Source: a virus. From it: 64,000 bases of DNA. This document shows positions 726-62,335 of the stretch, piece by piece. How positions within the stretch are numbered: position 1 is the first letter of the stretch; the number at the start of each line of letters is the position of its first letter. Made by a program: the position numbers and the translations under genes. The DNA is taken from positions 19,165 to 83,164 of IMG/VR virus record IMGVR_UViG_3300009790_002068; one strand, given 5' to 3'. The notes under the pieces were generated by a model. That model saw nothing but the letters and a program-made list of their open reading frames with translations. It searched no databases and was not told the origin of the DNA.

Positions 726-1457
726 ATGAAAGTAAGTGTAACAGGTAGTAGAGGATTTATAGGCAGTAGGCTTGTAGAACTCTTAAAAGAATCTGGACAC
801 GAAGTAGTAGAATGGGACAAGCTAATTAGCGAAGATCATGATATAGCTAATTGGAGACCCGAAGACTGTGACGTGTTAATTCATTTGGCAGGATTAGCCA
901 ATGTAAGAAAAAGTTTAGAACAACCTGAGGAATACTGGTATACAAATGTTGAGTTAAGTAAGAGCTTATTCTTTTTAGCATTGTCAAGTAATATGAGAGT
1001 AATATATGCTAGTAGCTCTTGTGCTAAACGTTGGTGGTTATCTCCTTACGGTACAAGTAAGAAAGCAATGGAATCGATAGCACCGCCTAGAAGTTTAGGT
1101 ATGAGATTTACAACTGTATACGGACCTGGTAGTAGAAAAGATATGTTAATAGGTCGTATAAGAGATAACAAGTTAGAATATGTTACAGATCATACTAGGG
1201 ACTTTATTCACGTAGATGATGTGTGTAGTGCTATTATAAAAAACCTAAATAACACTATACTATCTGGTGTAATTGATGTAGGTACTGGTGTTGGTACTAG
1301 TGTTCAAGAACTATCACAAATAGCTGGAATGGAAGTTCCATTAAAAGAAGGCGAACCTTGTGAAGCATCAGAAAATGTAGCAGATACAAGACCTTTACTT
1401 GCTACAGGCTGGAAGCCTAAATACAATGTAAAGGATTATGTGGAATCAATAATATGA
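726..1457 (+). CDS. NAD-dependent epimerase/dehydratase (extended SDR)
   Basis: The start at 726 is chosen because AGGAGA sits just upstream; the longer frame from 669 has no ribosome site and overlaps the polymerase. The 243-residue protein opens with a Rossmann glycine motif (TGSRGFIG, residues 6-13) and carries the SDR catalytic pair Tyr108-x3-Lys112 (YGTSK). It probably acts on a nucleotide sugar such as UDP- or GDP-hexose. Its stop overlaps the start of the UDP-glucose-dehydrogenase-like gene by 4 bp (ATGA), so the two are co-translated. It may supply sugars for DNA or surface glycosylation, for instance for the glycosyltransferase at 7245. The substrate is unknown. Confidence 0.85.
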   Translation: MKVSVTGSRGFIGSRLVELLKESGHEVVEWDKLISEDHDIANWRPEDCDVLIHLAGLANVRKSLEQPEEYWYTNVELSKSLFFLALSSNMRVIYASSSCAKRWWLSPYGTSKKAMESIAPPRSLGMRFTTVYGPGSRKDMLIGRIRDNKLEYVTDHTRDFIHVDDVCSAIIKNLNNTILSGVIDVGTGVGTSVQELSQIAGMEVPLKEGEPCEASENVADTRPLLATGWKPKYNVKDYVESII

Positions 1458-2245
1458 AATTTATAGTAGCAGGATATGGATTTGTTGGAAGTGCTATAGG
1501 TGATTTACTAGCTAAAAATCACGAAGTAATTCCAGTTGATCCTAGACTTAATAAAAATAAAATAGAAGATCACATACACAGTTCCGATGGATTGATAATT
1601 GCTGTTAGCACACCAGAAGGAACAGATGGTAAGTGTGATGTATCAAATGTTTGGAATGTTTTACAACAAGTTCGTTGGCCAAAAGACTATGAAGCTAACT
1701 TTGAATATCAAATTCCAATATTAATTAAAAGTACAGTACCTTGGACAGAGTTGGCTAATATGGAAAGGTTTAAGGTAACATACTATCCAGAGTTTTTGAG
1801 AGAAGCAACGGCTAAAGAAGATTTTGTTAACCAGAAGTATTGTATACTTGGAGGTGAGGACACAACGTTTTGGACTGACTTACTTTACAAATCTTTACCT
1901 TTAGTCAAACATATTCACAACTGTACAATAGAAGAAGCAAGTATTGTAAAGTATATGGCTAATAGTTTTCTAGCAACAAAGCTAACGTTCTTTAATGAAC
2001 TGTTTGAACTATGTAGCAAAACAGGAGCCAATTACGATACAGTAAGCAACTTATTGGGATTGGATACAAGAATTGGAACAGGTCATACTACAGTACCTGG
2101 GCCAGACGGCAAATATGGTTGGGGAGGTCATTGTTTTCCAAAAGACACCCAAGCATTACTAACTGTAGCGAAAGATTTAGATGTCAATCTTTCGTTATTA
2201 AAATCGGCGATTGAATCGAATAAAAATCACCGAAAAAAGACTTGA
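1454..2245 (+). CDS. UDP-glucose/GDP-mannose dehydrogenase family, C-terminally short
   Basis: This is an NAD-dependent oxidase of nucleotide-sugar C6. It shows an N-terminal Rossmann motif (GYGFVG, residues 7-12), the FLREATA signature near 114-120, and the catalytic cysteine Cys227 in GGHCFPKDT. At 263 residues it is much shorter than usual family members (about 390-450). The whole C-terminal UDP-binding domain seems to be missing, since the frame stops about 30 residues after the catalytic motif. It may be a compact phage version, may need a partner, or may use another substrate. It overlaps the upstream epimerase by 4 bp. An early-type promoter begins inside its last codons. Confidence 0.85.
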   Translation: MKFIVAGYGFVGSAIGDLLAKNHEVIPVDPRLNKNKIEDHIHSSDGLIIAVSTPEGTDGKCDVSNVWNVLQQVRWPKDYEANFEYQIPILIKSTVPWTELANMERFKVTYYPEFLREATAKEDFVNQKYCILGGEDTTFWTDLLYKSLPLVKHIHNCTIEEASIVKYMANSFLATKLTFFNELFELCSKTGANYDTVSNLLGLDTRIGTGHTTVPGPDGKYGWGGHCFPKDTQALLTVAKDLDVNLSLLKSAIESNKNHRKKT

Positions 2246-47877: not shown

Positions 47878-48159
47878 ATGAGTAATTTTTTCTATCTAAT
47901 AGGGGAAGTAGGTTTCCCAATAGCAGGCGCCATAATAGCTGGTATTTTCATATACATTGTTATTAAATTCATTTTGGCGAGTGTTACCCAAACAGTAACT
48001 ACTATGCAAAGTATGATTAAAGCTCTAGACAACAGAGTTCAAACAATGAACAACGATTTAGTCAAAATTGACACTTTACTATCTCACGTTGCTGGTGTAA
48101 GACCGGACGTGTCCAGAATAGCCGCGAATGAAGGCAAAGAAGATGCAAGGAGAGATTAA
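47878..48159 (+). CDS. Membrane-anchored coiled-coil protein, copy 1
   Basis: 93 residues: a membrane helix (about 10-33, GFPIAGAIIAGIFIYIVIKFIL) and a helical tail with MIKALDNRVQTMNNDLVKIDTLL. It is a paralog of the 48515 product, which shares GFPI...G and the LDNR/LDNDM helix. AAAGGAAGG precedes it. Topology suits holin-, spanin- or tape-like accessory roles; none proven. Confidence 0.68.
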   Translation: MSNFFYLIGEVGFPIAGAIIAGIFIYIVIKFILASVTQTVTTMQSMIKALDNRVQTMNNDLVKIDTLLSHVAGVRPDVSRIAANEGKEDARRD

Positions 48160-48514: not shown

Positions 48515-48823
48515 ATGGGTATAGAAGATTTAGTCGAAGTCATTAACAAATACGGCTTTCCCATAGTGGCGGCCGTAGGCATGGGCTACTTTATATGGTT
48601 CATATACCAATGGGTAACTAAAACTATTAAACCTGTACTTTCATCTACAACTGTAACGTTAATTGCTCTTATCGATAGAATAAGAATGTTAGACAATGAT
48701 ATGATTCGTTTAACAGTAAAACTCAATATGATATTAGAAGGTCTTGAGGAGAAAGAAAAACGTGATAATGATAAACAAAAAAATGGACGAAGCGGAAGCA
48801 AGGGCGTGGAAAAGTCTAGATAG
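48515..48823 (+). CDS. Membrane-anchored coiled-coil protein, copy 2
   Basis: 102 residues: membrane helix (about 14-35, GFPIVAAVGMGYFIWFIYQWV), then a coiled coil (LIALIDRIRMLDNDMIRLTVKL) and a basic tail. It is related to the 47878 product, suggesting local duplication. It overlaps the next gene by 56 bp. Confidence 0.68.
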   Translation: MGIEDLVEVINKYGFPIVAAVGMGYFIWFIYQWVTKTIKPVLSSTTVTLIALIDRIRMLDNDMIRLTVKLNMILEGLEEKEKRDNDKQKNGRSGSKGVEKSR

Positions 48824-48929
48824 ATCATTAGGTGGCGTTATATGGAGCCACTGTGATATGTGTAAATCTTTTGTTATTGGAACAATTTTAGGATTTGCTA
48901 CTTGTCTAATTTTAATAGCTATTTTGTAG
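48768..48929 (+). CDS. Small tail-anchored membrane protein
   Basis: 53 residues from ATG 48768, inside the end of copy 2. CDMC pairs two Cys before a C-terminal membrane helix (about 34-53). It converges with the cyclase gene, overlapping 11 bp. Unknown function. Confidence 0.55.
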   Translation: MINKKMDEAEARAWKSLDRSLGGVIWSHCDMCKSFVIGTILGFATCLILIAIL

Positions 48930-51021
48930 TAGCTACATATACACCATCCCAATCTTTAGGCGGTGGATTAATTTTATAATCTTTAATTCGATCAGTTATA
49001 ATAGTATAATAACTATCTAACTCTCCGGAAAACTTACCCATTAGGTTATCGATAGCATCTTCACAGAACTTCCAGTTCTGCTTAACATAATTTTCTCTTA
49101 ATTTACAATGTAAATCAACAAGGTGATGTAGTTGAGCAATTTCTTCTAGTTTAACAATGTCAGGATCAACAACAGTATAAATCGCTACTGGTTCTTTTTT
49201 ACCTTTAACAGCAATAGAATCTAATTCTAAAATTGTGTGCTTACCTGTTAAAGCCTTTGCTGTTTCTTGTCCAAATAATATTTTCACACCGTATCCTTTC
49301 GTTTGTCCTTCTAGTCTGGCCGCTAAATTAACAGCGTCACCTAAACAACTATAATCAAATCTTTGATCTGAACCCATGTTACCTACAACAGCATCGCCTG
49401 TATTAAGACCAATTCCTATGTTAATTGGTAACATCTTTTCTTTAGTTAACTGAGTATTTAACTCTTTTAAGCCCTTTAACATACTAATACTGGTATCAAC
49501 AGCTTTATCGGCCTGTTGTTCTACATCTAAAGGAGCATTCCAAAACGCCATAATACAGTCACCCATATACTTGTCAACAGTACCTTCATTTACCATAATA
49601 ATATCCGTCATTGGTGTTAAGAACCTATTAACTAATTCCGTTAGTCCTTGTGGGTTAGTTTTAAATTGCTCTGATATAGGAGTAAACCCTCTAATATCAC
49701 AGAACAATAAAGTTAACTGTCTAGTATCACCACCCAATTTCAATAAGTCTGGATTCTTCTGGAGCTTTTTAACCATTGCCGGAGCTAGATAATGTTCAAA
49801 CTGTTTCTTGATTTGTTGTTTAAGCATAAACTCTTTTACAAATCTATTAAAGACAGCATGAAATCCAACAACAAAAATCATTACTGCTGGCATAGTAGGA
49901 TCTATTAGCCAAAGTTTAGTGTTAAACAAATATGTTACTCCATATCCAATACCACCCAAACTAGAAATAATTAGTATACCACTAAACCAATAAGGAGCAA
50001 AAGCAATAACAACAACAAGTAAAAGTCCAATAGCAAGTATTCCACCAAGTTCGTATAAGTCAGCCCACATAGGACGCTCTACAGTTTCGCCTAATATAAT
50101 TGTGCTTAATGTACTACCTATAATTTCGTGTGGATACTTTTCACCTAAAGGTGTAGCAACCGGATTGCCTAATCCTTCTGCTGTTAATCCTATAATAACA
50201 GTTTTACCTTCAATGCCTTCTAAACCATCTACTGTATAATTAAGTGTTGGTATGTCAGCATTCCAACGTAAAAATAATCTACCTCTATCGTCAGTTTTAA
50301 TAATTCCTCTGTTAATAGGAAAGCCTTTTACTCTAACACTATGAATTCCGTATGGTGTAGTTTTCATTTGATAACTGTCTACACCCATCATTACTCTTAA
50401 TGTTTCTATTGCTATATTAGGATACAAATCTCCTTGTACGTTAATAAGCAAAGGAACACGTCTTACAACGCCATCTACTTCTGGTGCTGTACTAATAACA
50501 CCTACACCATCTACTACGTCAGCTAACGAAGTTAGAGGCCCTAGCATACCTGGATATGTAAATAAATTGTTGGCCGCATCTTTATTACCACCAACCATAC
50601 TAACGCCACGAGGTATACCCGTTGTGCTTTTTTGTATGCTACCTGTCTGTGCTATAACTACACCATTTTGGTAAAGCATTTCCATAAACTCTTGATCTTT
50701 ATTAAACCTATCTGCTTCACTAAACAATACAGGTAAAACAATTACTCCAGCACCGGCCATTCTTAATTCTAATATTAATTGTGCTATCTTATCTCTAGGC
50801 CAAGGCCATTGTCCGTTTGACTCTATACTTGCTTCGCCTAAAGTTACATAAACTAAATTATTATCTTGGTAAACTGTTTCATTTTGTAGTTGGTAATCAA
50901 AACTCTTTAACTTTGCTGTTTGAACAACCCAAGGATTAACAAACACCATATAAGCTATAGCAAAAACTGTAAGGAATGGAATAGTCCAATGTGTTAAAAT
51001 CTTACTTAACTTTGTTTTCAT
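48919..51021 (-). CDS. CHASE2-domain class III adenylate cyclase
   Basis: 700 residues. An N-terminal membrane helix (about 12-29), an extracytoplasmic CHASE2 sensor (about 35-330), three membrane helices (about 335-400) and a C-terminal cyclase (about 430-610). The cyclase keeps both metal Asp residues (LFCDIRGFT and DKYMGDCIMAF), the Lys of DKYMGD, and GDAVNLAARLEG with the Asp that favours ATP. It is the last gene of the csg operon. A transmembrane sensor making cAMP in a phage is very unusual. Confidence 0.9.
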   Translation of the reverse strand: MKTKLSKILTHWTIPFLTVFAIAYMVFVNPWVVQTAKLKSFDYQLQNETVYQDNNLVYVTLGEASIESNGQWPWPRDKIAQLILELRMAGAGVIVLPVLFSEADRFNKDQEFMEMLYQNGVVIAQTGSIQKSTTGIPRGVSMVGGNKDAANNLFTYPGMLGPLTSLADVVDGVGVISTAPEVDGVVRRVPLLINVQGDLYPNIAIETLRVMMGVDSYQMKTTPYGIHSVRVKGFPINRGIIKTDDRGRLFLRWNADIPTLNYTVDGLEGIEGKTVIIGLTAEGLGNPVATPLGEKYPHEIIGSTLSTIILGETVERPMWADLYELGGILAIGLLLVVVIAFAPYWFSGILIISSLGGIGYGVTYLFNTKLWLIDPTMPAVMIFVVGFHAVFNRFVKEFMLKQQIKKQFEHYLAPAMVKKLQKNPDLLKLGGDTRQLTLLFCDIRGFTPISEQFKTNPQGLTELVNRFLTPMTDIIMVNEGTVDKYMGDCIMAFWNAPLDVEQQADKAVDTSISMLKGLKELNTQLTKEKMLPINIGIGLNTGDAVVGNMGSDQRFDYSCLGDAVNLAARLEGQTKGYGVKILFGQETAKALTGKHTILELDSIAVKGKKEPVAIYTVVDPDIVKLEEIAQLHHLVDLHCKLRENYVKQNWKFCEDAIDNLMGKFSGELDSYYTIITDRIKDYKINPPPKDWDGVYVATTK

Positions 51022-51220
51022 CTTCTTTTTTCCATCTTAATTTTTCTCTTGTTTCTAATTGATTTTTGAACCAACCGGTTACCTCTTCACTATCACAACA
51101 TTGAACCATAAACTTAATACCCACATAACCATCTCCCTGAAACATAAGCTGGCCGTCTTTATAAAATCTACTTTTCCCGTCGTCTAGTACTAGACGATAA
51201 TTTTCATGTTCGTATAACAT
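51002..51220 (-). CDS. Small protein between curlin and cyclase genes
   Basis: 72 residues: YENYRLVLDDGKSRFYKDGQLMFQGDGYVGIKFM suggests a small beta sheet; the tail is Lys-rich. Two adjacent Cys (QCCDSE). It overlaps the cyclase start by 20 bp. No family recognised. Confidence 0.55.
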   Translation of the reverse strand: MLYEHENYRLVLDDGKSRFYKDGQLMFQGDGYVGIKFMVQCCDSEEVTGWFKNQLETREKLRWKKEDENKVK

Positions 51221-51232
51221 AAAAGTATTTAA

Positions 51233-52723
51233 CTAATTTTGTGTCACAGAAGTAGTACACCCAGAACTATTAGTACAGTCTTGTGTAAGTGTATAATTTT
51301 GGTCTGTACTGCTGTTTTGGTCTAATGTTACAGTACTTGATCCACCTGAATTTGTTAAATCTATTCTAGCACCGTGGTCACCTGACCCTCGCTGTGTTGC
51401 TGTAACTGTATGTCCGTTTCCGTTAATATCCAAATCTAAATAATGATTTCCAGTTTCTTTTTGGTCTGTTGATATAGTATTACTACTTCCATCTAAGTCT
51501 ATAAACAAGTCTTTTGAATTATTATTTCTTTGATATGATGTTACTGTATTTTGTCCGCCTGTAATATCAATGTGTGAGAAATGGCTAGAAGTATTACCAC
51601 CATCATTATATTGATAAAGTGTTAAACTATTAGTATCGCCTGTTACATTTACTTTTGCTTTATGTCCGCCAGTATCACTATTACCCATTGTTCCTTGTCT
51701 AATCATTACAGTATTAGCATCTCCGTCTACGTCTAGTCCAATACCATTATTATTAGATGCTCCTAAACTCGAACCTTGCTCTAGTGTTATGTCTAAATTA
51801 TCACCAGTAAGTGTAGCAACAGAACTAAAATCACTTCCTTCAATAAAGTTATTGTCACCTTTTTGAATAATATCTAAATCTAAATTTCCGCCACTTTGTG
51901 TAATTCTTATTGTGTTGGTACTATATGTTCTACTTGTTGCTGTAGACTTTATTGTCGATTGACTAGATGTTATAGCAACAGAAGACGCTGACCTTGTTGT
52001 TGCTGTAGAAACAGCAACATCTGATTGTAGTGAATCAATCCATGCTTGGTCACCACTATTATAATAACTTGAATGAGAAGCATAGTTAATATCTAATACT
52101 ACAATAACTTTACCATTAGCATAACTGCTCATAGCGTCACCGTCCCATAAAGCACCAACTACTTTACTTGTATTACTTGGGTCTCTTATTAACCATTTAC
52201 CATTTGTTCCTATGTTATCAAAATAACCAGAAGCAACAACTGTCATGTCATCACTACTAGAATAACTTGTCATAATATCTCTGTTTTCGTCCATTGAATA
52301 CCCAGAACCACTACCACAACAAGATTGACCAGAATGTGATATGTTGTTATCACCTGTAACTTCTTGTAAGAAAGCAACAATTCCATCATTCCTAGCGTCG
52401 AAGTTACCGTTCTCACCTACTAGGTATACAGTACCTCCATTTGATAATACTGTTTTAAATCTGTCTTTATCTGCTGTTGAGTAACTAGAGTAAGAATATC
52501 TTATATCATAAACTTGGTCATAGTTAGATGCTGTATAAGAATATGATGAACTTGTATTCTGCATGGTCACAGTATGACCAGCATTTTCTAATCTGTTTTT
52601 ATGTTTGCTATGTGTATTACCGTAGTTTTGGTGGATAATTAAAACATCATCTGCTAATACTGATGTTGTAAAGAAAATCAAAAATAGAAAACAAAATATA
52701 CTACTGAGCTTGGTAAATGACAA
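51233..52723 (-). CDS. Secreted two-domain protein: ThuA-like domain plus curlin-type repeats
   Basis: 496 residues. A signal peptide (cleaved after LA, about 24). Residues about 25-235 form an alpha/beta, GATase/ThuA-like domain (VLIIHQNYGN, NGGTVYLVGENGNF). Residues about 270-496 are strand repeats with curlin-like Q-x-G-x-x-N units (ITQSGGNLDLDIIQKGDNNF). A curlin domain fused to a sensor-like domain is not a known Csg component. It overlaps the FecR gene by 23 bp. Confidence 0.75.
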   Translation of the reverse strand: MSFTKLSSIFCFLFLIFFTTSVLADDVLIIHQNYGNTHSKHKNRLENAGHTVTMQNTSSSYSYTASNYDQVYDIRYSYSSYSTADKDRFKTVLSNGGTVYLVGENGNFDARNDGIVAFLQEVTGDNNISHSGQSCCGSGSGYSMDENRDIMTSYSSSDDMTVVASGYFDNIGTNGKWLIRDPSNTSKVVGALWDGDAMSSYANGKVIVVLDINYASHSSYYNSGDQAWIDSLQSDVAVSTATTRSASSVAITSSQSTIKSTATSRTYSTNTIRITQSGGNLDLDIIQKGDNNFIEGSDFSSVATLTGDNLDITLEQGSSLGASNNNGIGLDVDGDANTVMIRQGTMGNSDTGGHKAKVNVTGDTNSLTLYQYNDGGNTSSHFSHIDITGGQNTVTSYQRNNNSKDLFIDLDGSSNTISTDQKETGNHYLDLDINGNGHTVTATQRGSGDHGARIDLTNSGGSSTVTLDQNSSTDQNYTLTQDCTNSSGCTTSVTQN

Positions 52724-53801
52724 TTTCGTTTCCTCCAGTTCCTCCTAATTCATAATCGAAAACTTCGAAGTCTTGTTGCTTTACATTAATAGTATAGTTA
52801 TTATCGTTAGTTAATTCTAAGTCGATTGTATTATTGCCGTCAACTCTTCTGCTCCAGTTCCAGCTATCATCTCTCACAATTAATATAATACCACGTTCAT
52901 CTATAGATGATTTTTCTTTTTTCTTTATACCTGCTAAAGCGTCTTTGCTTAATAATTTAATAAGTTCTGCGTTAACTTGTTCTAAGATATCTGGTAATAG
53001 GTCAAAGTCTAACCAGTTAATAGCCAATTCGTCAAATTCTTCTTCTACTTCTAAAGCATCAACATCTAATTCTTTAAACTCTAAAAAATCAATATCAAGT
53101 AAGTCAACAACTTTTTGTCTTGCTAAGGCGTCTTCGTCCTCAACAATAGGTTTACTTCTTATTAATAATAAGTTATTAATTAAACTTTCATCTATTTCTA
53201 ACTGTACAACTGGTGACGGTGAACGTTCTCGAGAACTAGTAGATGTTGCCTGAAATGCCTGGGTAAGAAGAACAAAACCTGCATCGGTTTCTACACTTAT
53301 CTCACCTACATAACAAGCACCGGAAATATCACAAGAGGGGAGCAATATGATTGTACTGCCGCCGAGCTCGTCCACTGTCATAGTAAAGTCAGTACCCCTT
53401 ACTCCAATAGTTGAAGTAGGAGTTTCTATTTTAACATTTTGCCTAAAGTTTTTTGCCAGTTTGCCTGAAGCATATCTAATTGTGCCTAATTTAGCCTGTA
53501 AGTTCAAGGAGCCTTCATTATTACTTGGATCATATACATAATCGTCAATAGTTAATAAAGACTGAGGAGTCATATCTACGATAGTTTCATCTATGAACGT
53601 AAGTCTATGAGCTCCTTGAAATGTTTCAATTCTATCCATCATTTCTAATGGAGTATTTTCTTCAGTTTCAAGAGAAGTCCCACCTTCTCTTTCTAATAAT
53701 CCAGAGCTTTCAGCCGCACTAACTATACCGATAGATTTATCATCAGCTATAGCTACTGAGCTAAAGAGGAGCGAAAACACGATTATTAGCTTGTATAACA
53801 T
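52701..53801 (-). CDS. Exported FecR-domain protein
   Basis: 366 residues with a signal peptide (cleaved after IA, about 19). The FecR domain spans about 40-165: IETFQGAHRLTFIDETIVDMTPQSLLTID and STIGVRGTDFTMTV. FecR domains sense or bind at the envelope and often occur with CHASE2 cyclases in bacteria, as here. The C-terminal part is acidic and ends strand-rich. It may link surface fibre state to the cyclase. Confidence 0.82.
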   Translation of the reverse strand: MLYKLIIVFSLLFSSVAIADDKSIGIVSAAESSGLLEREGGTSLETEENTPLEMMDRIETFQGAHRLTFIDETIVDMTPQSLLTIDDYVYDPSNNEGSLNLQAKLGTIRYASGKLAKNFRQNVKIETPTSTIGVRGTDFTMTVDELGGSTIILLPSCDISGACYVGEISVETDAGFVLLTQAFQATSTSSRERSPSPVVQLEIDESLINNLLLIRSKPIVEDEDALARQKVVDLLDIDFLEFKELDVDALEVEEEFDELAINWLDFDLLPDILEQVNAELIKLLSKDALAGIKKKEKSSIDERGIILIVRDDSWNWSRRVDGNNTIDLELTNDNNYTINVKQQDFEVFDYELGGTGGNEIVIYQAQ

Positions 53802-53808
53802 AAACGCC

Positions 53809-54498
53809 TTAGTCTGTTTGACTTATGTCAACGTCGTGACTAGCACCTGATGTAATCAAGTTTGTATTAGCATCATTAGTTCCACTTACAACAACATCAA
53901 AGTTTCCTGAAGATCCTGTGTGATGCATAGTTACACTATGACCAGCACTATCACCGTCGCCGTCAACATCAATGTTAAATGTATTTGTTGAACCTACTAT
54001 TGTTAATGAAGTTGGAGCACTAGCACCATCAACATCAATATTAGCTGTGTTAGTATCGCCTGTAATCTGTAATGTAACGTCTGAGTCAGCAGAGTTTCTA
54101 ATTGTACCTACATCAATGTCAATGTCGTTACTATCACCTGTTGAACCAGAATCAGTTACGTCAATATCAACGTTCCAGTTATCACAGTTATAGTTTCCAG
54201 TAGCATCACAATTTAAAACAATGTTGTTACTGTTACCAGTTACATCTATATCAACACTAGCTGAAGCACCTTCAACGTCTGCCGCCAAAATGTTACTGTT
54301 ACCAGTTTGAGTTACACTAAATGCCATAGTAGCACCTATCAACGATGCTCTAGCACTTGATGTACCAAATACGTTATTTGTACCATCTTGGACTACGTCT
54401 AAGTTTAGACTTGCTCCGCTTTGTGTAATATAAATGTCGTTGGCCCACACAGAAGTTGAAAACAGGAAAGTTAGTAAAGTTATAATTATTTTTTTCAT
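53809..54498 (-). CDS. Secreted curlin-like amyloid subunit
   Basis: 229 residues from ATG 54498, which has AAGGAT upstream; the longer frame reaches into csgG. Signal peptide MKKIIITLLTFLFSTSVWA. About ten imperfect strand repeats follow, opening with the curlin-type ITQSGASLNLDVVQDGTNN and FSVTQTGNSNIL, then Asp/Asn/Thr-rich units (TGDTNTANIDVDG). It would be the CsgG substrate, a CsgA/CsgB analogue, but is more acidic than known curlins. Confidence 0.75.
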   Translation of the reverse strand: MKKIIITLLTFLFSTSVWANDIYITQSGASLNLDVVQDGTNNVFGTSSARASLIGATMAFSVTQTGNSNILAADVEGASASVDIDVTGNSNNIVLNCDATGNYNCDNWNVDIDVTDSGSTGDSNDIDIDVGTIRNSADSDVTLQITGDTNTANIDVDGASAPTSLTIVGSTNTFNIDVDGDGDSAGHSVTMHHTGSSGNFDVVVSGTNDANTNLITSGASHDVDISQTD

Positions 54499-54511
54499 AA
54501 TATCCTTTTCC

Positions 54512-55390
54512 TTATCTATTAAAAGTGTCTGGAACCCAACTATCAACAATGACTTTTTCTTCTTTTAGTTCTGTCTTTATTTCTTGTTTAGATTCTTTCA
54601 CTTCGTTTACTTTCTTATAAGCCCAAAGATTTTTTTGTTTACCTTTTTCAATCAAGTTACAGACTGCTAATTCAATAGCAAGTCTTGTAGCTACATTTAC
54701 TGGTTCGTTAAGTGCCGTTCCTATTTCTGCTTCAAGTGGTTCTGTTCCAGCATCCATCCAACGGAAAACATCACCTTGTGTTTTTACACTTATGATTGTT
54801 TTTGTTGTAGTAGATGTTAATAAAACTTCTCCGCTTGATACAGATACTAATCTAATACTGACCGTTACTGTATCTCTTGTGTATTGAGTATTTGCTCCAA
54901 TGCCTAGCACTCGAGCTCCGTACCCGCCTGATTCAAGGTTGCTGTCGTATCCAACTATGGCTCCTTCTATTAAAACTCCAGCAAACAATAGAGGTTGTAG
55001 GACATCTTGGTCTTTATTAAGCTCTCTTGTTTGTCTTATAATTTGTCTTTCTTTTATAAGGTGATCAATACCAGTTCGTTCAACAACTTGGAACCAACTA
55101 CTATCTCCTACTTCTTTAAGAGTTTCTATTAGATAAGCACCAGCACCTTGGGTAACTGCTGAGCTTAAATGTGCTATTTGTCCAGGCTTTCTTTGGCCAG
55201 TTAAGTCACTAAACTGATATACTGCTACAGTAATCAGTGGACCATCTAGCTTTGGAAAGTTCTTGACATCTTGTGAGGCATTTTGTACACCAGCGTCAGA
55301 ATAATGCTTTTTGTAAGTATTATTACTAACTGTCGCTGTACAGCCTACCAAGAACATAGCAACTAGGATTATTGAAAATATCTTGTTCAT
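54512..55390 (-). CDS. csgG: CsgG curli secretion channel lipoprotein
   Basis: 292 residues, near E. coli CsgG (277). Lipobox ending at Cys17 (FLVGC). The conserved blocks are present: VAVYQFSDLTGQRKPGQ, SSAVTQGAGAYLIETL, SWFQVVERTGIDHLIKERQIIR, GAIVGYDSNLESGGYGAR and GIGANTQYTRDTV. It should form the nonameric outer-membrane pore that exports curlin. The C-terminal tail is Lys/Glu-rich and longer. It overlaps csgF by 1 bp. Confidence 0.93.
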   Translation of the reverse strand: MNKIFSIILVAMFLVGCTATVSNNTYKKHYSDAGVQNASQDVKNFPKLDGPLITVAVYQFSDLTGQRKPGQIAHLSSAVTQGAGAYLIETLKEVGDSSWFQVVERTGIDHLIKERQIIRQTRELNKDQDVLQPLLFAGVLIEGAIVGYDSNLESGGYGARVLGIGANTQYTRDTVTVSIRLVSVSSGEVLLTSTTTKTIISVKTQGDVFRWMDAGTEPLEAEIGTALNEPVNVATRLAIELAVCNLIEKGKQKNLWAYKKVNEVKESKQEIKTELKEEKVIVDSWVPDTFNR

Positions 55391-55848
55391 TAGAATGCAA
55401 AATCTCCTACAGGTACTGACATTGTTGTAACAGTTCCATCGGACTCTGTAATCCTAATGTTAATGTTATCTCCAACTTTTTCCCAGTAAATGATGTTGTC
55501 TTCTATTTCGGCAGTACCACTTGTAGCACTACCTTCTCCAAACATATTATCAACTAACTGTTTGGATAATTGAGCATAGATACGACTTTCTACGTTGACT
55601 AAAAATTTCTTAACAGTATTTTGAGTGGCTTGTCTTTCAGCTTCTTTGGCTTCTGCTTCTGCTTTGTCTTTTACTTCTTTTTGACGTGTGAAGCGAAGCT
55701 GTTCTACTGATAAAACGTGAGATGAATAACCGTTTCCAGAATGAAAGGAAGGGTTTTTAAACCCAAACTCCAACTGTTGAGCTCTTAGGCTCGTGTTGAA
55801 ACCCACGGTGATCACTAAGACCGCGGCGATTATTATGTATCTCGTCAT
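55390..55848 (-). CDS. csgF: CsgF curli assembly factor
   Basis: 152 residues with a signal peptide (cleaved after RA, about 23). The mature start QQLEFGFKNPSFHSGNGYSSHVL matches the CsgF segment that plugs CsgG and holds the nucleator. A helical middle (VKDKAEAEAKEAERQATQN) and a strand-rich C-terminus follow. First of the csgF-csgG-curlin order. No csgE was found. Confidence 0.9.
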   Translation of the reverse strand: MTRYIIIAAVLVITVGFNTSLRAQQLEFGFKNPSFHSGNGYSSHVLSVEQLRFTRQKEVKDKAEAEAKEAERQATQNTVKKFLVNVESRIYAQLSKQLVDNMFGEGSATSGTAEIEDNIIYWEKVGDNINIRITESDGTVTTMSVPVGDFAF

Positions 55849-55868
55849 AAAACAACTCCCCGTACTAT

Positions 55869-56114
55869 TTAATTCTCAGTCGAGGTGTCTAATAAGACCT
55901 TATATTCTTCGTTAGATACACAAGCAAAGTCATACAATACGCCTTCGGTTTTGTAGAAATTGTTTACGTGGATGTTTATAGGTGTGTAATTTTGCTGAGC
56001 GAACTGGATACATTGTATTTCGTTCTCAAAACTTATATTTTTAAACTCATAGACCTCGTATGTGGTATTATCCACATTAGATACTATTGCCATTAAAATC
56101 CAGAATATTTTCAT
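55869..56114 (-). CDS. Small exported protein at the head of the csg operon
   Basis: 81 residues. A weak signal-like start (MKIFWILMAIVSNV), then FENEIQCIQFAQQNY and a second Cys (FACVSNEEY), perhaps a disulfide. Too short and unlike CsgE. A late-like box at 56132 lies just upstream. Function unknown. Confidence 0.55.
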   Translation of the reverse strand: MKIFWILMAIVSNVDNTTYEVYEFKNISFENEIQCIQFAQQNYTPINIHVNNFYKTEGVLYDFACVSNEEYKVLLDTSTEN

Positions 56115-56131
56115 ATTGACTCCTCAGCAAA

Positions 56132-56139
56132 TATTTATG
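56132..56139 (-). promoter_or_regulatory. Candidate late promoter for the csg operon
   Basis: CATAAATA on the minus strand, 17 bases before the first operon start, with GAGGAG between. The leader would be very short. Confidence 0.35.
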
Positions 56140-56144
56140 CCATT

Positions 56145-56164
56145 TCCGTAAAAATCTTTACGGA
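56145..56164 (-). terminator. Stem-loop directly after the Fis-type gene
   Basis: TCCGTAAA and TTTACGGA form a perfect 8-bp stem with a 4-base loop, starting right after the stop codon. No T run follows. It separates the regulator from the csg operon. Confidence 0.5.
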
Positions 56165-56452
56165 TCAGAGAGTATTTAAGTCGATGTCAAGCGATTTTAT
56201 TCTATGGTGTAATCGTTCCCTTGATATTCCTAAATCCCTGGCCGCCTTCGCTATTACATTATGGTTGTTTTGAAGGGCTCTTTGTATATTCTTCTTTTCT
56301 AAGTTCTTAAGATAGTCTGGTAACGGTTCACTCGGATCTGGTGTGAAGAAATCATCATCTGGAATTGAAAACTGAAGGTCGTCTAATGACTTCCATATAA
56401 ATTCCTGCTCTGTGATGTGATCAGCCGTCATAAAACTTTTTCGGTCTGTCAT
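56165..56452 (-). CDS. Fis-type HTH DNA-binding protein
   Basis: 95 residues. The C-terminus NIQRALQNNHNVIAKAARDLGISRERLHHRIKSL is the Fis/NtrC helix-turn-helix. The N-terminal half is acidic (DDDFFTPDPSEPLPDYL) and lacks an AAA+ domain, so it is a stand-alone DNA-binding factor. It lies upstream of the csg operon on the same strand and could control it. Confidence 0.85.
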   Translation of the reverse strand: MTDRKSFMTADHITEQEFIWKSLDDLQFSIPDDDFFTPDPSEPLPDYLKNLEKKNIQRALQNNHNVIAKAARDLGISRERLHHRIKSLDIDLNTL

Positions 56453-56480: not shown

Positions 56481-56494
56481 GTATTTATAAATAC
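56481..56494. promoter_or_regulatory. Palindromic divergent late promoter
   Basis: GTATTTATAAATAC is a perfect 14-bp palindrome holding TATAAATA on both strands. It lies between the Fis-type gene (minus) and the 56522 gene (plus), 28-29 bases from each. Confidence 0.6.
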
Positions 56495-59592: not shown

Positions 59593-60288
59593 TTAATCAG
59601 TCCTGCCAAAGCCCCACTCACGTTCTTTACAAAACCAACATTCTCCACAATGGTGACTAAAGTCGGTTGTATATGCTTCACAGCTTCTTGTCTGATCAAA
59701 CAAACTGCCAGGTTCCATTAGACTAAATTGATTATAGATTTCTGCTACACCTTTTTTATCTGTATTAATAAAAGGTCTATAACCCGGATGGCACCCGTCG
59801 TTATTAAATTGATCAAATACACCATGCCTCTCATACAACAATGGATCTGTTCCATCTTCGTCAAATTGTTCGTGTACCTCTTTAGGTGGGTTTTGTGTTA
59901 AACCCATATAATGTCGTTGTACACCTGTGTGGCCTGGTTCATCATTACAAGTATTATTATATGCTTGATCTAAAATAAGATCTTGTGTATCTGAATAATC
60001 CATATCACCTGATCTCATATTTGTTATATGGTCTATTACTTTTACACTAGGAAATTCTTTTTGTAACCATTTAATAACTTTTGTAGCAAACTCTACCTGA
60101 TATGCTTTAGTATCATAATCTGTTGTTACAATAACAACTTCTACATCTAGGTTTTGTTCGTGTATAGTTTTAAATATCATATAAGATACTCCAGCACTAT
60201 CAAGGCCACCGGATACTTTAATAGCAATTTTGCTTACATCTTTTAGGCTGGTAAAATCGTATGTGTCTTGGGAAGATTTGAATATCAT
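59593..60288 (-). CDS. QueC-like PP-loop enzyme, paralog B
   Basis: 231 residues, the usual QueC length. KVSGGLDSAGVSYMIF (about 23-38) is the PP-loop, and CEAYTTDFSHHCGECWFCKEREWGF holds four Cys. Both paralogs end in the same CKEREWGF, so they come from one duplication. One may make preQ0 and the other an amide or amidine from it, as with other deazaguanine DNA bases; that is inference. It overlaps dam by 1 bp. Confidence 0.8.
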   Translation of the reverse strand: MIFKSSQDTYDFTSLKDVSKIAIKVSGGLDSAGVSYMIFKTIHEQNLDVEVVIVTTDYDTKAYQVEFATKVIKWLQKEFPSVKVIDHITNMRSGDMDYSDTQDLILDQAYNNTCNDEPGHTGVQRHYMGLTQNPPKEVHEQFDEDGTDPLLYERHGVFDQFNNDGCHPGYRPFINTDKKGVAEIYNQFSLMEPGSLFDQTRSCEAYTTDFSHHCGECWFCKEREWGFGRTD

Positions 60289-61196
60289 TATGCTCCTTCC
60301 TCGAACAGTTCGTTAAAGTTATTCATTGGTTCTACAACATCTTCTGGATTGTAATTCATTATTAATAGTTCAGTACGTTCAGGTCTTATACCTGTACCCA
60401 TTTTACCATCTTTACGAACTGCTCCTTCTTGTTTCTTAAGTCCGTTATTAGTATATGTAACTTCTTCATGCCAATAGTATTTGTTTCTAGGTAACATAGT
60501 TTCTAATTCAGGAAAATGATAATAGCTTAATGCCCATTTGCCTTTAGTATGTTTTAACATTTCTAATAATTCTATATGATCAAGTTTACCAAATTCATCT
60601 TCTGTATAATAACTTTCAAGTTTAAAATAAGGCGGATCAATATAGAAAAATGTGTCAGCATGATCATACTTTCTAATTAAATCTCTACAATCCATATTCT
60701 CAACTGTTAAGTGACTTAACTTGTCCAAGTATTTAACTTGTTGAAACTTTTCTGTAAAAGTCTTGAACTTCGGTTTATAGTTTTCGTTGTGATACATCTT
60801 TGTTGTTTTTGTTAAACCATTACCGCCACTGAATATCTGCATCTGTAATAACATATACTTCGCGGCTAAATCGTAATCTGGTATAGGAAATTTTTGATTA
60901 TAGATAGCAAATACTTCATCTCTGTATTCTATAAACTTATCTCCATCGCCTATGTCTTTATAATAGCTTAAACAAGTTTGTTCCATTTTAGCAGGATCTG
61001 TACTGCTACATAAGAACACGTTTGCTAAATGTCTATTAAAGTCATTATAAACATTAACAGTAGCAGGTAGCTTTCCGCTCATCCAGTACATCCACATAGC
61101 ACCACCAAACACTTCTATATACTTTGTAGTGTTTTCAGGAAAGAATGGATCTATCCATTTGCTGTGTTGTTTTTTACCACCTATATATGGAAACAT
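60288..61196 (-). CDS. dam: DNA adenine methyltransferase (Dam/D12 class)
   Basis: 302 residues. PYIGGKKQHSKWI (3-15) and EVFGGAMWMYW (about 28-38) form the SAM site; FFYIDPPYF (about 195-203) is the catalytic DPPY. It methylates adenine N6, usually in GATC. It sits within the same operon as the two QueC paralogs, so the phage may carry two kinds of DNA protection. Confidence 0.9.
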   Translation of the reverse strand: MFPYIGGKKQHSKWIDPFFPENTTKYIEVFGGAMWMYWMSGKLPATVNVYNDFNRHLANVFLCSSTDPAKMEQTCLSYYKDIGDGDKFIEYRDEVFAIYNQKFPIPDYDLAAKYMLLQMQIFSGGNGLTKTTKMYHNENYKPKFKTFTEKFQQVKYLDKLSHLTVENMDCRDLIRKYDHADTFFYIDPPYFKLESYYTEDEFGKLDHIELLEMLKHTKGKWALSYYHFPELETMLPRNKYYWHEEVTYTNNGLKKQEGAVRKDGKMGTGIRPERTELLIMNYNPEDVVEPMNNFNELFEEGA

Positions 61197-62335
61197 TATT
61201 CACCTGTTGTTGAGCTTTCGTAAATTGTGTTTAACTGATTTGACACTTGAATAAATGTAGCACACTTTGATAACCTTTTTAATTTATTAGCACCTACGTA
61301 GGTACAAGCACTTCTTACACCACCTAAAATATCTTGGATAGTATTATTAACTTCTCCTCTGTATGGAACTAATGCTGTACGACCTTCACTTGAACGATAG
61401 TCTTTTAATCCGTCAAAATGCTTTTCATTTGCTGTTTTTGAACTCATACCATAAAACTGTACAAACTGTTTTTCTTCTATTCGTCTGTTAGTACCGTTTG
61501 ACATTTCGTTAGTAACATATTTTTTAACAATAACTTCGCCACCACCTTCATTGTGTCCTGCTAACATTCCACCAAGCATTACAAAATCAGCACCTCCGGC
61601 AAATGCTTTTGCTACGTCTCCAGGGCAAGTACACCCACCGTCAGCAATAATATGACCACCCAAGCCGTGGGCGGCATCTGCACATTCAATAACTGCTGAT
61701 AACTGTGGATATCCAACTCCAGTTTTAAGTCTTGTTGTACAAACCGAGCCAGGTCCAATCCCAACCTTAACGATATCTGCTCCATTTAAAATTAACTCCT
61801 GTGTCTGATCTGATGTTACTACATTACCAGCAATAATAACAATCTCTGGATAGTTTGATCTAAACGTATTAATAAATTGTAAAAATCTTTCACTATATCC
61901 ATTTGCTACATCGATACAAACATATTTTAACTTGTTTCCTGTTTGCTCGTATACATCACGAAACTTTTGATGATCGTGATCTAAAATTCCAATACTCATT
62001 GCTACGTTATTTTTACGATCGTTTGTATCAACATCAAAATAACTTACAAGTTCATTAACACTATAAGTTTTAACCAAGCAAGTAAAAATACGTTGCTTTG
62101 CTAAAGTGTCAGCCATTTCAAATGTACCAACACCATCCATATTACTTGCCATTAATGGAATACCTAAAAAGTCTCCGTGTTCTTCACGTCTGCTTTTTCC
62201 TGGTTCACCCGGCTTGTAATTATGGTATGTAAATCTACGTTGTAAATCTACTGCTTTTCTAGAACCCAATGTACTACGTTTAGGTCTCATTAATACATCT
62301 GAATAATCTAGTTTAATATCTGGTTCAATTCTCAT
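61196..62335 (-). CDS. guaC: GMP reductase
   Basis: 379 residues, TIM barrel without CBS domains. [18 protein letters not shown] (9-26) and the catalytic loop [11 protein letters not shown] (Cys199) match GuaC better than GuaB. It converts GMP to IMP with NADPH. DpdA-type exchange frees guanine; the phosphoribosyltransferase at 16388 could turn it into GMP and this enzyme into IMP, closing a loop. GuaB remains an alternative. Confidence 0.85.

Follow-up and report, generated by a model that had tools for sequence, protein, structure and literature searches.

A phage-borne curli-type export module with a variable second curlin gene, a FecR-CHASE2 cyclase pair and two small membrane proteins as candidate partners

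The stretch of DNA analysed in this work, hereafter the window, is a part of 64,000 nucleotides of a marine phage known from a linear IMG/VR virus record 83 kb in length, and carries on one strand six genes encoding, in order, CsgF, CsgG, a first curlin-repeat protein (curlin 1), a FecR-domain protein, a second curlin-repeat protein (curlin 2) and a CHASE2 class III nucleotide cyclase (Table 1). A preliminary description made from the sequence had named these genes, all of which are present with open reading frames as described, and had missed a convergent pair of genes for small membrane proteins (a and b). Elsewhere in the window, QueC-like, D12 DNA adenine methyltransferase and IMP dehydrogenase-like genes stand in a row (59593-62335). 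No near DNA relative of the window was found among 50,697 phage records, and within these records full-length protein matches of the pore, FecR and cyclase were confined to HTVC008M and four Melnitz isolates, whose annotated genomes show the same gene order.

Table 1. Features of the curli-type locus (window coordinates).
Feature	Coordinates	Strand	Evidence and remarks
Small membrane protein a	47878..48159	+	phrog_18771; 93-102 aa pair
Small membrane protein b	48515..48823	+	phrog_18771; convergent with the cyclase gene
CHASE2 transmembrane class III nucleotide cyclase	48919..51021	-	CHASE2 8.4e-38; Guanylate_cyc 5e-20; catalytic residues intact
72-aa protein, accessory	51002..51220	-	relatives in 17 viral loci
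Curlin-repeat protein 2, variable slot	51233..52723	-	GAT/GIFT-type head, curlin stalk, C-terminal Cys pair
Curlin 2 putative exchangeable head (about residues 25-240)	52004..52651	-	alpha/beta class I GAT-like fold
FecR-domain protein	52701..53801	-	PF04773 7.9e-8; signal peptide; no anti-sigma part; C-terminal curlin-type strand NEIVIYQ
Curlin-repeat protein 1, putative constant fibre subunit	53809..54498	-	Sec signal peptide; alignment of 36 relatives; median dN/dS 0.11
CsgG homologue, outer-membrane pore	54512..55390	-	PF03783 3.6e-49; E. coli CsgG structures 2.6e-48; lipobox LVGC
CsgF homologue	55390..55848	-	PF10614 1.3e-18; phrog_35372 2.4e-47; signal peptide; pore-binding F-x2-P-x-F type N-terminus
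Small protein (81 aa), local accessory	55869..56114	-	export unsupported
Fis-type HTH protein, first gene of unit	56165..56452	-	HTH_8 1.9e-8; found in 7 viral loci
T4-type late promoter TATAAATA	56482..56489	-	located 30 bases ahead of the Fis-like start, within a palindrome that serves either direction

Curli-type genes have been reported from such phages before. csgF and csgG, together with a curli-associated gene, were described in pelagimyophages in 2020, with "sibling capture" as the proposed process (PMC7029224); a 2022 study of Melnitz described the pore, denied the presence of csgA/B and proposed a role in lysis (PMC9004378). The gene set is not new, contrary to the preliminary description, because the same order was published in 2022 for pelagiphages by Wittmers et al. 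(PMC9599517), who reported CsgF-CsgG-CsgA/B-FecR-second CsgA/B-adenylate cyclase together with a "histidine kinase" and argued for an alphaproteobacterial origin. That module, which HTVC008M and Melnitz also carry, likewise has no CsgE. The rest of the earlier interpretation is borne out as far as curli-type secretion genes, secreted curlin-repeat substrates, FecR, a CHASE2 cyclase, a late unit and the missing CsgE are concerned. What our sequence analyses appear to add to the known gene combination are exchangeable curlin-2 heads, a FecR-CHASE2 signalling pair, the a/b partners and the late promoter. We did not find the heads, the promoter or the signalling pair reported in PMC9599517, and open-licence papers yielded nothing on the heads, on the small membrane pair or on FecR and CHASE2 as partners in these phages.

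The preliminary description had proposed searching phage genomes for the whole gene order. Our survey covered 231 viral loci from three independent queries (CsgG, FecR and cyclase), with the best 80 taken per query from what for CsgG amounted to about 480 stretches overall, so that it is biased towards closer relatives. The order CsgF-CsgG-curlin 1-FecR-curlin 2-cyclase, whole or truncated at an end, fits nearly all of these loci; the exceptions were a lone cyclase (L301), a cyclase moved in front of csgF (L175) and two loci with an additional cyclase-like open reading frame (L041 and L249). A second sample, found through the membrane pair a/b, includes loci without a detected curlin 2. Every module gene is under purifying selection, with dN/dS medians of 0.11-0.14, lowest in curlin 1, and of 0.20 in curlin 2.

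As described at the outset, CsgG and CsgF keep their family blocks, with strong Pfam matches to both. The N-terminus of the window CsgF aligns to that of E. coli CsgF, and the motif F-x2-P-x-F-x-G occurs in 94 of 123 relatives. Compared with the csgBAC-DEFG system of E. coli, the module shares CsgG and CsgF homologues and curlin repeats related to 8c50 and CsgA, but has gained FecR and the cyclase and carries a different CsgG constriction loop (PGQIAHL, against PYPASNF in E. coli). The absence of CsgE, already remarked on from the sequence, was upheld by a Pfam search for PF10627, which found none in the record or in six larger relatives; CsgE is likewise lacking in alphaproteobacterial modules (PMC9599517). 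A 1.5-kb unannotated "Salmonella phage" record (OR851715.1) also matches CsgG and is probably host DNA.

Curlin 1, the true start of which is likely to lie at 54498, measures 224-251 aa in most loci and is as conserved as CsgG. Pfam curlin repeats were not detected in the window curlin 1 and remained sub-threshold in curlin 2 (E=0.003; 17.9 bits, the cut-off being 20.7). Profile comparisons nevertheless settle the identity of both proteins, called curlin-like in the preliminary description, as curlin-repeat proteins: the curlin-2 family profile matches the solved curlin-repeat protein 8c50 at 5.1e-8, and hhalign aligns this family with curlin 1 at a probability of 99.3%.

Curlin 2 ranges from 108 to 551 aa across loci, and its C-terminal Cys pair is kept in all 124 proteins compared. 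Its identity falls below 0.4 in over a third of the pairs of loci in which CsgG is 0.90-0.97 identical, and it drops to 14-30% identity, or switches length class, next to neighbours that are 90-99% identical. Alignments show the gene to be a cassette slot in which head and stalk are exchanged separately: between HTVC008M (PA14 head) and L224 (GAT head) the stalk is 93% identical and the head 20%, and between L049 and L073 the signal peptide is 100% identical and the remainder 14%. Recognised head types comprise PA14 (HTVC008M; 2.7e-6), F5/8 type C (6.3e-10; a head carried by L401), a GAT-like fold and one without a family. When 110 loci are arranged on a tree of CsgG plus FecR, the curlin-2 class changes at least 39 times, compared with 58 when shuffled, so that the slot is passed on for some time and frequently replaced. 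A large head is absent from about two thirds of the curlin-2 proteins sampled, and headless mini forms are common. The window protein had been described as a ThuA/curlin fusion, a designation that holds for ThuA at the level of fold only, since the ThuA Pfam family has no match in the window protein and only a sub-threshold one in a relative (L016; 0.043). Structure prediction, suggested in the preliminary description and run for curlin 2, gave a head model of low-to-moderate confidence (mean pLDDT 65) that Foldseek matches to class I GAT/IFT52-type alpha/beta domains at 2.0e-4 with a modest TM-score. At or beside the curlin-2 slot, several loci encode an extra secreted, possibly beta-barrel protein of 595-676 aa that belongs to no Pfam family (L058:13833-15731, L425:13654-15441, L489, L512 and L551).

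The assignments of FecR and the CHASE2 cyclase are supported by Pfam (Table 1). The FecR model matches the PupR signalling domain (7.5e-5) and includes a C-terminal beta region; its N-terminus also resembles 5ix9, a domain for anchoring at the cell surface, with a TM-score of 0.73 across 62 columns and a weak E-value. A role as anti-sigma or iron regulator was rejected on the architecture, in which the signal peptide directly precedes the FecR domain and both the cytoplasmic anti-sigma N-terminus and a membrane segment are absent. A C-terminal strand of the form hydrophobic-x-hydrophobic-x-Q is shared by FecR (135/135), curlin 1 (126/130) and curlin 2 (102/124), and is rare in the controls (CsgG 0/129, CsgF 0/123, cyclases 2/127). 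True curlin repeats in the FecR C-terminal domain were rejected on non-significant hhalign comparisons, so that just the terminal strand motif stands.

In the window cyclase the two metal Asp, the substrate Lys and the transition-state Asn and Arg are all present. Both Asp, the Lys and the Arg occur in 130 of 130 homologues and the Asn in 100; in the other 30 phage cyclases Ser replaces the Asn, and 31 of the 130 have Asp at the purine site. The Melnitz cyclase (L002:13667-15718) has both changes, and its substrate or activity may therefore differ.

Genomic context links the two proteins beyond phages. In Alphaproteobacteria, 11 of 57 FecR genes lie within 4 kb of a CHASE2 gene against 0.35 expected (a Poisson estimate, among the matches listed), about 30-fold above chance, and 10 of the 11 CHASE2 neighbours are full-length CHASE2 cyclases. 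In the BiofilmReg operon of Burkholderia, which controls biofilm (PMC5192318), a periplasmic FecR-domain protein similarly stands beside a CHASE2 membrane sensor; that system differs in its LysM-FecR and its histidine kinase output, whereas in the phages the partner of FecR is a cyclase, and both belong with curli genes. Another output for a FecR/CHASE2 pairing is seen in a SAR11-family genome, where a CHASE2-SpoIIE phosphatase gene adjoins a FecR-domain gene (G162, L388:3049-7919). The cyclic nucleotide has no known receiver, because a cAMP receptor is missing from nearly all SAR11 genomes and phages tested: cNMP-binding domains were found in 4 of 79 SAR11-family genomes and in none of the seven phage records tested, which led us to reject a cAMP receptor of the phage or of a SAR11-type host in this role. 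Class III cyclases occur in 3 of the 79 genomes, two of them on the same contigs as CsgG.

The preliminary description placed these genes in a late-promoter unit, and the T4-type sequence is indeed present, although it lies upstream of the Fis-type gene and not after it. TATAAATA occurs five times in the window against 12 expected by chance, and is hence rarer; four of the five copies stand just before open reading frames, one of them fronting the curli unit. In 116 relatives the stretch before csgF has 0.82 copies per kb, often at a constant spacing, and the interior of the module 0.055 per kb, a 15-fold difference. Placement and density together indicate that the unit is most likely expressed late. 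The Fis-type, 81-aa and 72-aa genes have few relatives and were rejected as module members, leaving them as local accessories; the 81-aa protein, earlier described as exported, does not begin with a convincing signal peptide (KD19 peak of 0.95).

The small membrane proteins a and b (93 and 102 aa) each show a single N-terminal hydrophobic segment and a helical tail. Among isolates they are present only in the six module-bearing records. In IMG/VR loci found by querying a/b and extending at least 8 kb on both sides, the pair is present in 46 of 46; CsgG/CsgF accompany it in 42, and in the remaining four it occurs with the cyclase, alone or together with further genes of the module. The pair stands either in tandem before csgF or convergently after the cyclase, so that its link to the module survives rearrangement. 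On this co-occurrence, a and b are constant, obligate and previously unrecognised partners of the module. The "histidine kinase, sometimes two" reported before csgF in PMC9599517 is probably this pair, judging from its position; Pfam finds no kinase domains (HisKA, HATPase) in either protein.

Bacterial counterparts of the full module are scarce. Of the 385 Alphaproteobacteria in which FecR had a full-length match, Hyphomonas sp. TMED17 alone provided a candidate source, in a chromosomal operon on a 705-kb bacterial contig (L090) that shares the order CsgF-CsgG-curlin-FecR-CHASE2 cyclase. It differs in having one curlin gene, no variable second curlin and a FecR that ends in ...FILE rather than ...IxIxQ. 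Curli operons of bacteria can thus include FecR and the cyclase, which is at odds with what PMC9599517 states. Other top-ranked "bacterial" matches are on contigs of phage-derived appearance. Phage-like curli contigs, probably mis-binned, occur in bins named Sphingobacteriales, Flavobacteriaceae, Rhodobacteraceae and Synechococcus (L143:9698-15345 in G002, L084, L086 and L102). On a further phage-like contig, binned as Saprospirales (L125, PAPS01000029.1), genes resembling alternative oxidase and the succinate dehydrogenase iron-sulphur subunit lie near the curli module (946-2239, minus strand).

Taken as a phage-borne curli-type (type VIII) export module turned on with the late genes, this gene set would very probably make the infected cell export curli-like fibres. 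CsgG would form the outer-membrane pore and CsgF its cap, curlin 1 would be the constant fibre subunit, and curlin 2 would be a second, fibre-compatible subunit presenting an exchangeable ligand-binding-type head on its curlin stalk. Late-infected cells or their remains would thus be decorated with adhesive fibres, the binding specificity of which could be swapped between phages. FecR would act as a partner in the periplasm or outside the cell, able to bind curlin or the export complex through its curlin-like C-terminal strand, and the inner-membrane CHASE2 cyclase would read FecR and report the state of export as cyclic nucleotide, with a/b as obligate partner. We lean towards this reading, the late display of adhesive curli-type fibres with swappable heads and a built-in FecR-CHASE2 sensor, at somewhat better than even odds; adhesion would most likely serve the capture of new host cells or particles. 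Of the uses proposed in the preliminary description, display at the surface is favoured by the exchangeable ligand-binding-type heads. Against fibre display stand the lack of clumping in cultured Melnitz-infected cells (PMC9004378), the missing CsgE, the lack of a known cyclic-nucleotide receiver, the shortness of the FecR strand motif, the modest confidence of the head model and the large share of curlin-2 proteins without a large head.

Among possible uses we infer an order of adhesive capture, superinfection block and lysis pore. The second, suggested in PMC9599517, would have fibres coat the infected cell and block the adsorption of competing phages, with head swapping following the rival phages or their receptors. 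Fast-changing heads on exported surface proteins would fit such an arms race, but protection under a late promoter would arrive late and headless mini curlin 2 is common, and we judge a superinfection block unlikely, if worth serious attention. A lesser chance attaches to the model proposed for Melnitz, in which CsgG-CsgF would be an outer-membrane pore turned to a new use, pinholin-like or as a gated secretin, and would help to time lysis, with the curlins as passengers. It accords with late expression, with the holin-like layout of the constant small membrane neighbours a/b and with the structural prediction of the Melnitz authors (PMC9004378). However, wherever the contig left room downstream for a check, no locus had CsgG/CsgF without curlin, which speaks against a lysis pore alone; together with the constraint on curlin 1, which equals that on CsgG, this also weakens the pore for release put forward in the preliminary description. 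A lysis pore would moreover leave the ligand-binding-type heads without a role. Doubtful to a similar degree is a scheme in which FecR senses fibre export at its curlin-like tail and the CHASE2 cyclase signals to a phage receiver, tuning lysis or energising export; here a phage component such as a/b would be the receiver, since hardly any host or phage genome has a classical cAMP receptor.

Two further proposals are highly improbable. An uptake system in which iron complexes or cofactors would enter through an open CsgG pore, with FecR as a ferric-citrate regulator (suggested in PMC7029224 and PMC9599517), agrees with the PupR-like fold of the FecR domain, but the architecture of FecR contradicts it, as does its pairing with a cyclase instead of a sigma factor and TonB receptor, and neither curlin nor heads would be needed. 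Virion proteins that bind receptors typically have exchangeable lectin-type heads as well, and late expression would suit curlins that decorate the virion, but both curlins carry Sec signal peptides and are linked to a secretion pore and periplasmic partners.

The module is widespread in phages of the most abundant ocean bacteria. The exchangeable heads make the question of why these phages carry curli testable, through what the PA14, F5/8 type C and GAT-type heads bind and whether their exchange alters which cells adhere to one another. The FecR-CHASE2 pair replaces the reading of FecR as an iron regulator, and a and b would give the module two unstudied obligate members. Finally, the cyclase points to a so far unrecognised receiver, cAMP receptors being nearly absent from the host.
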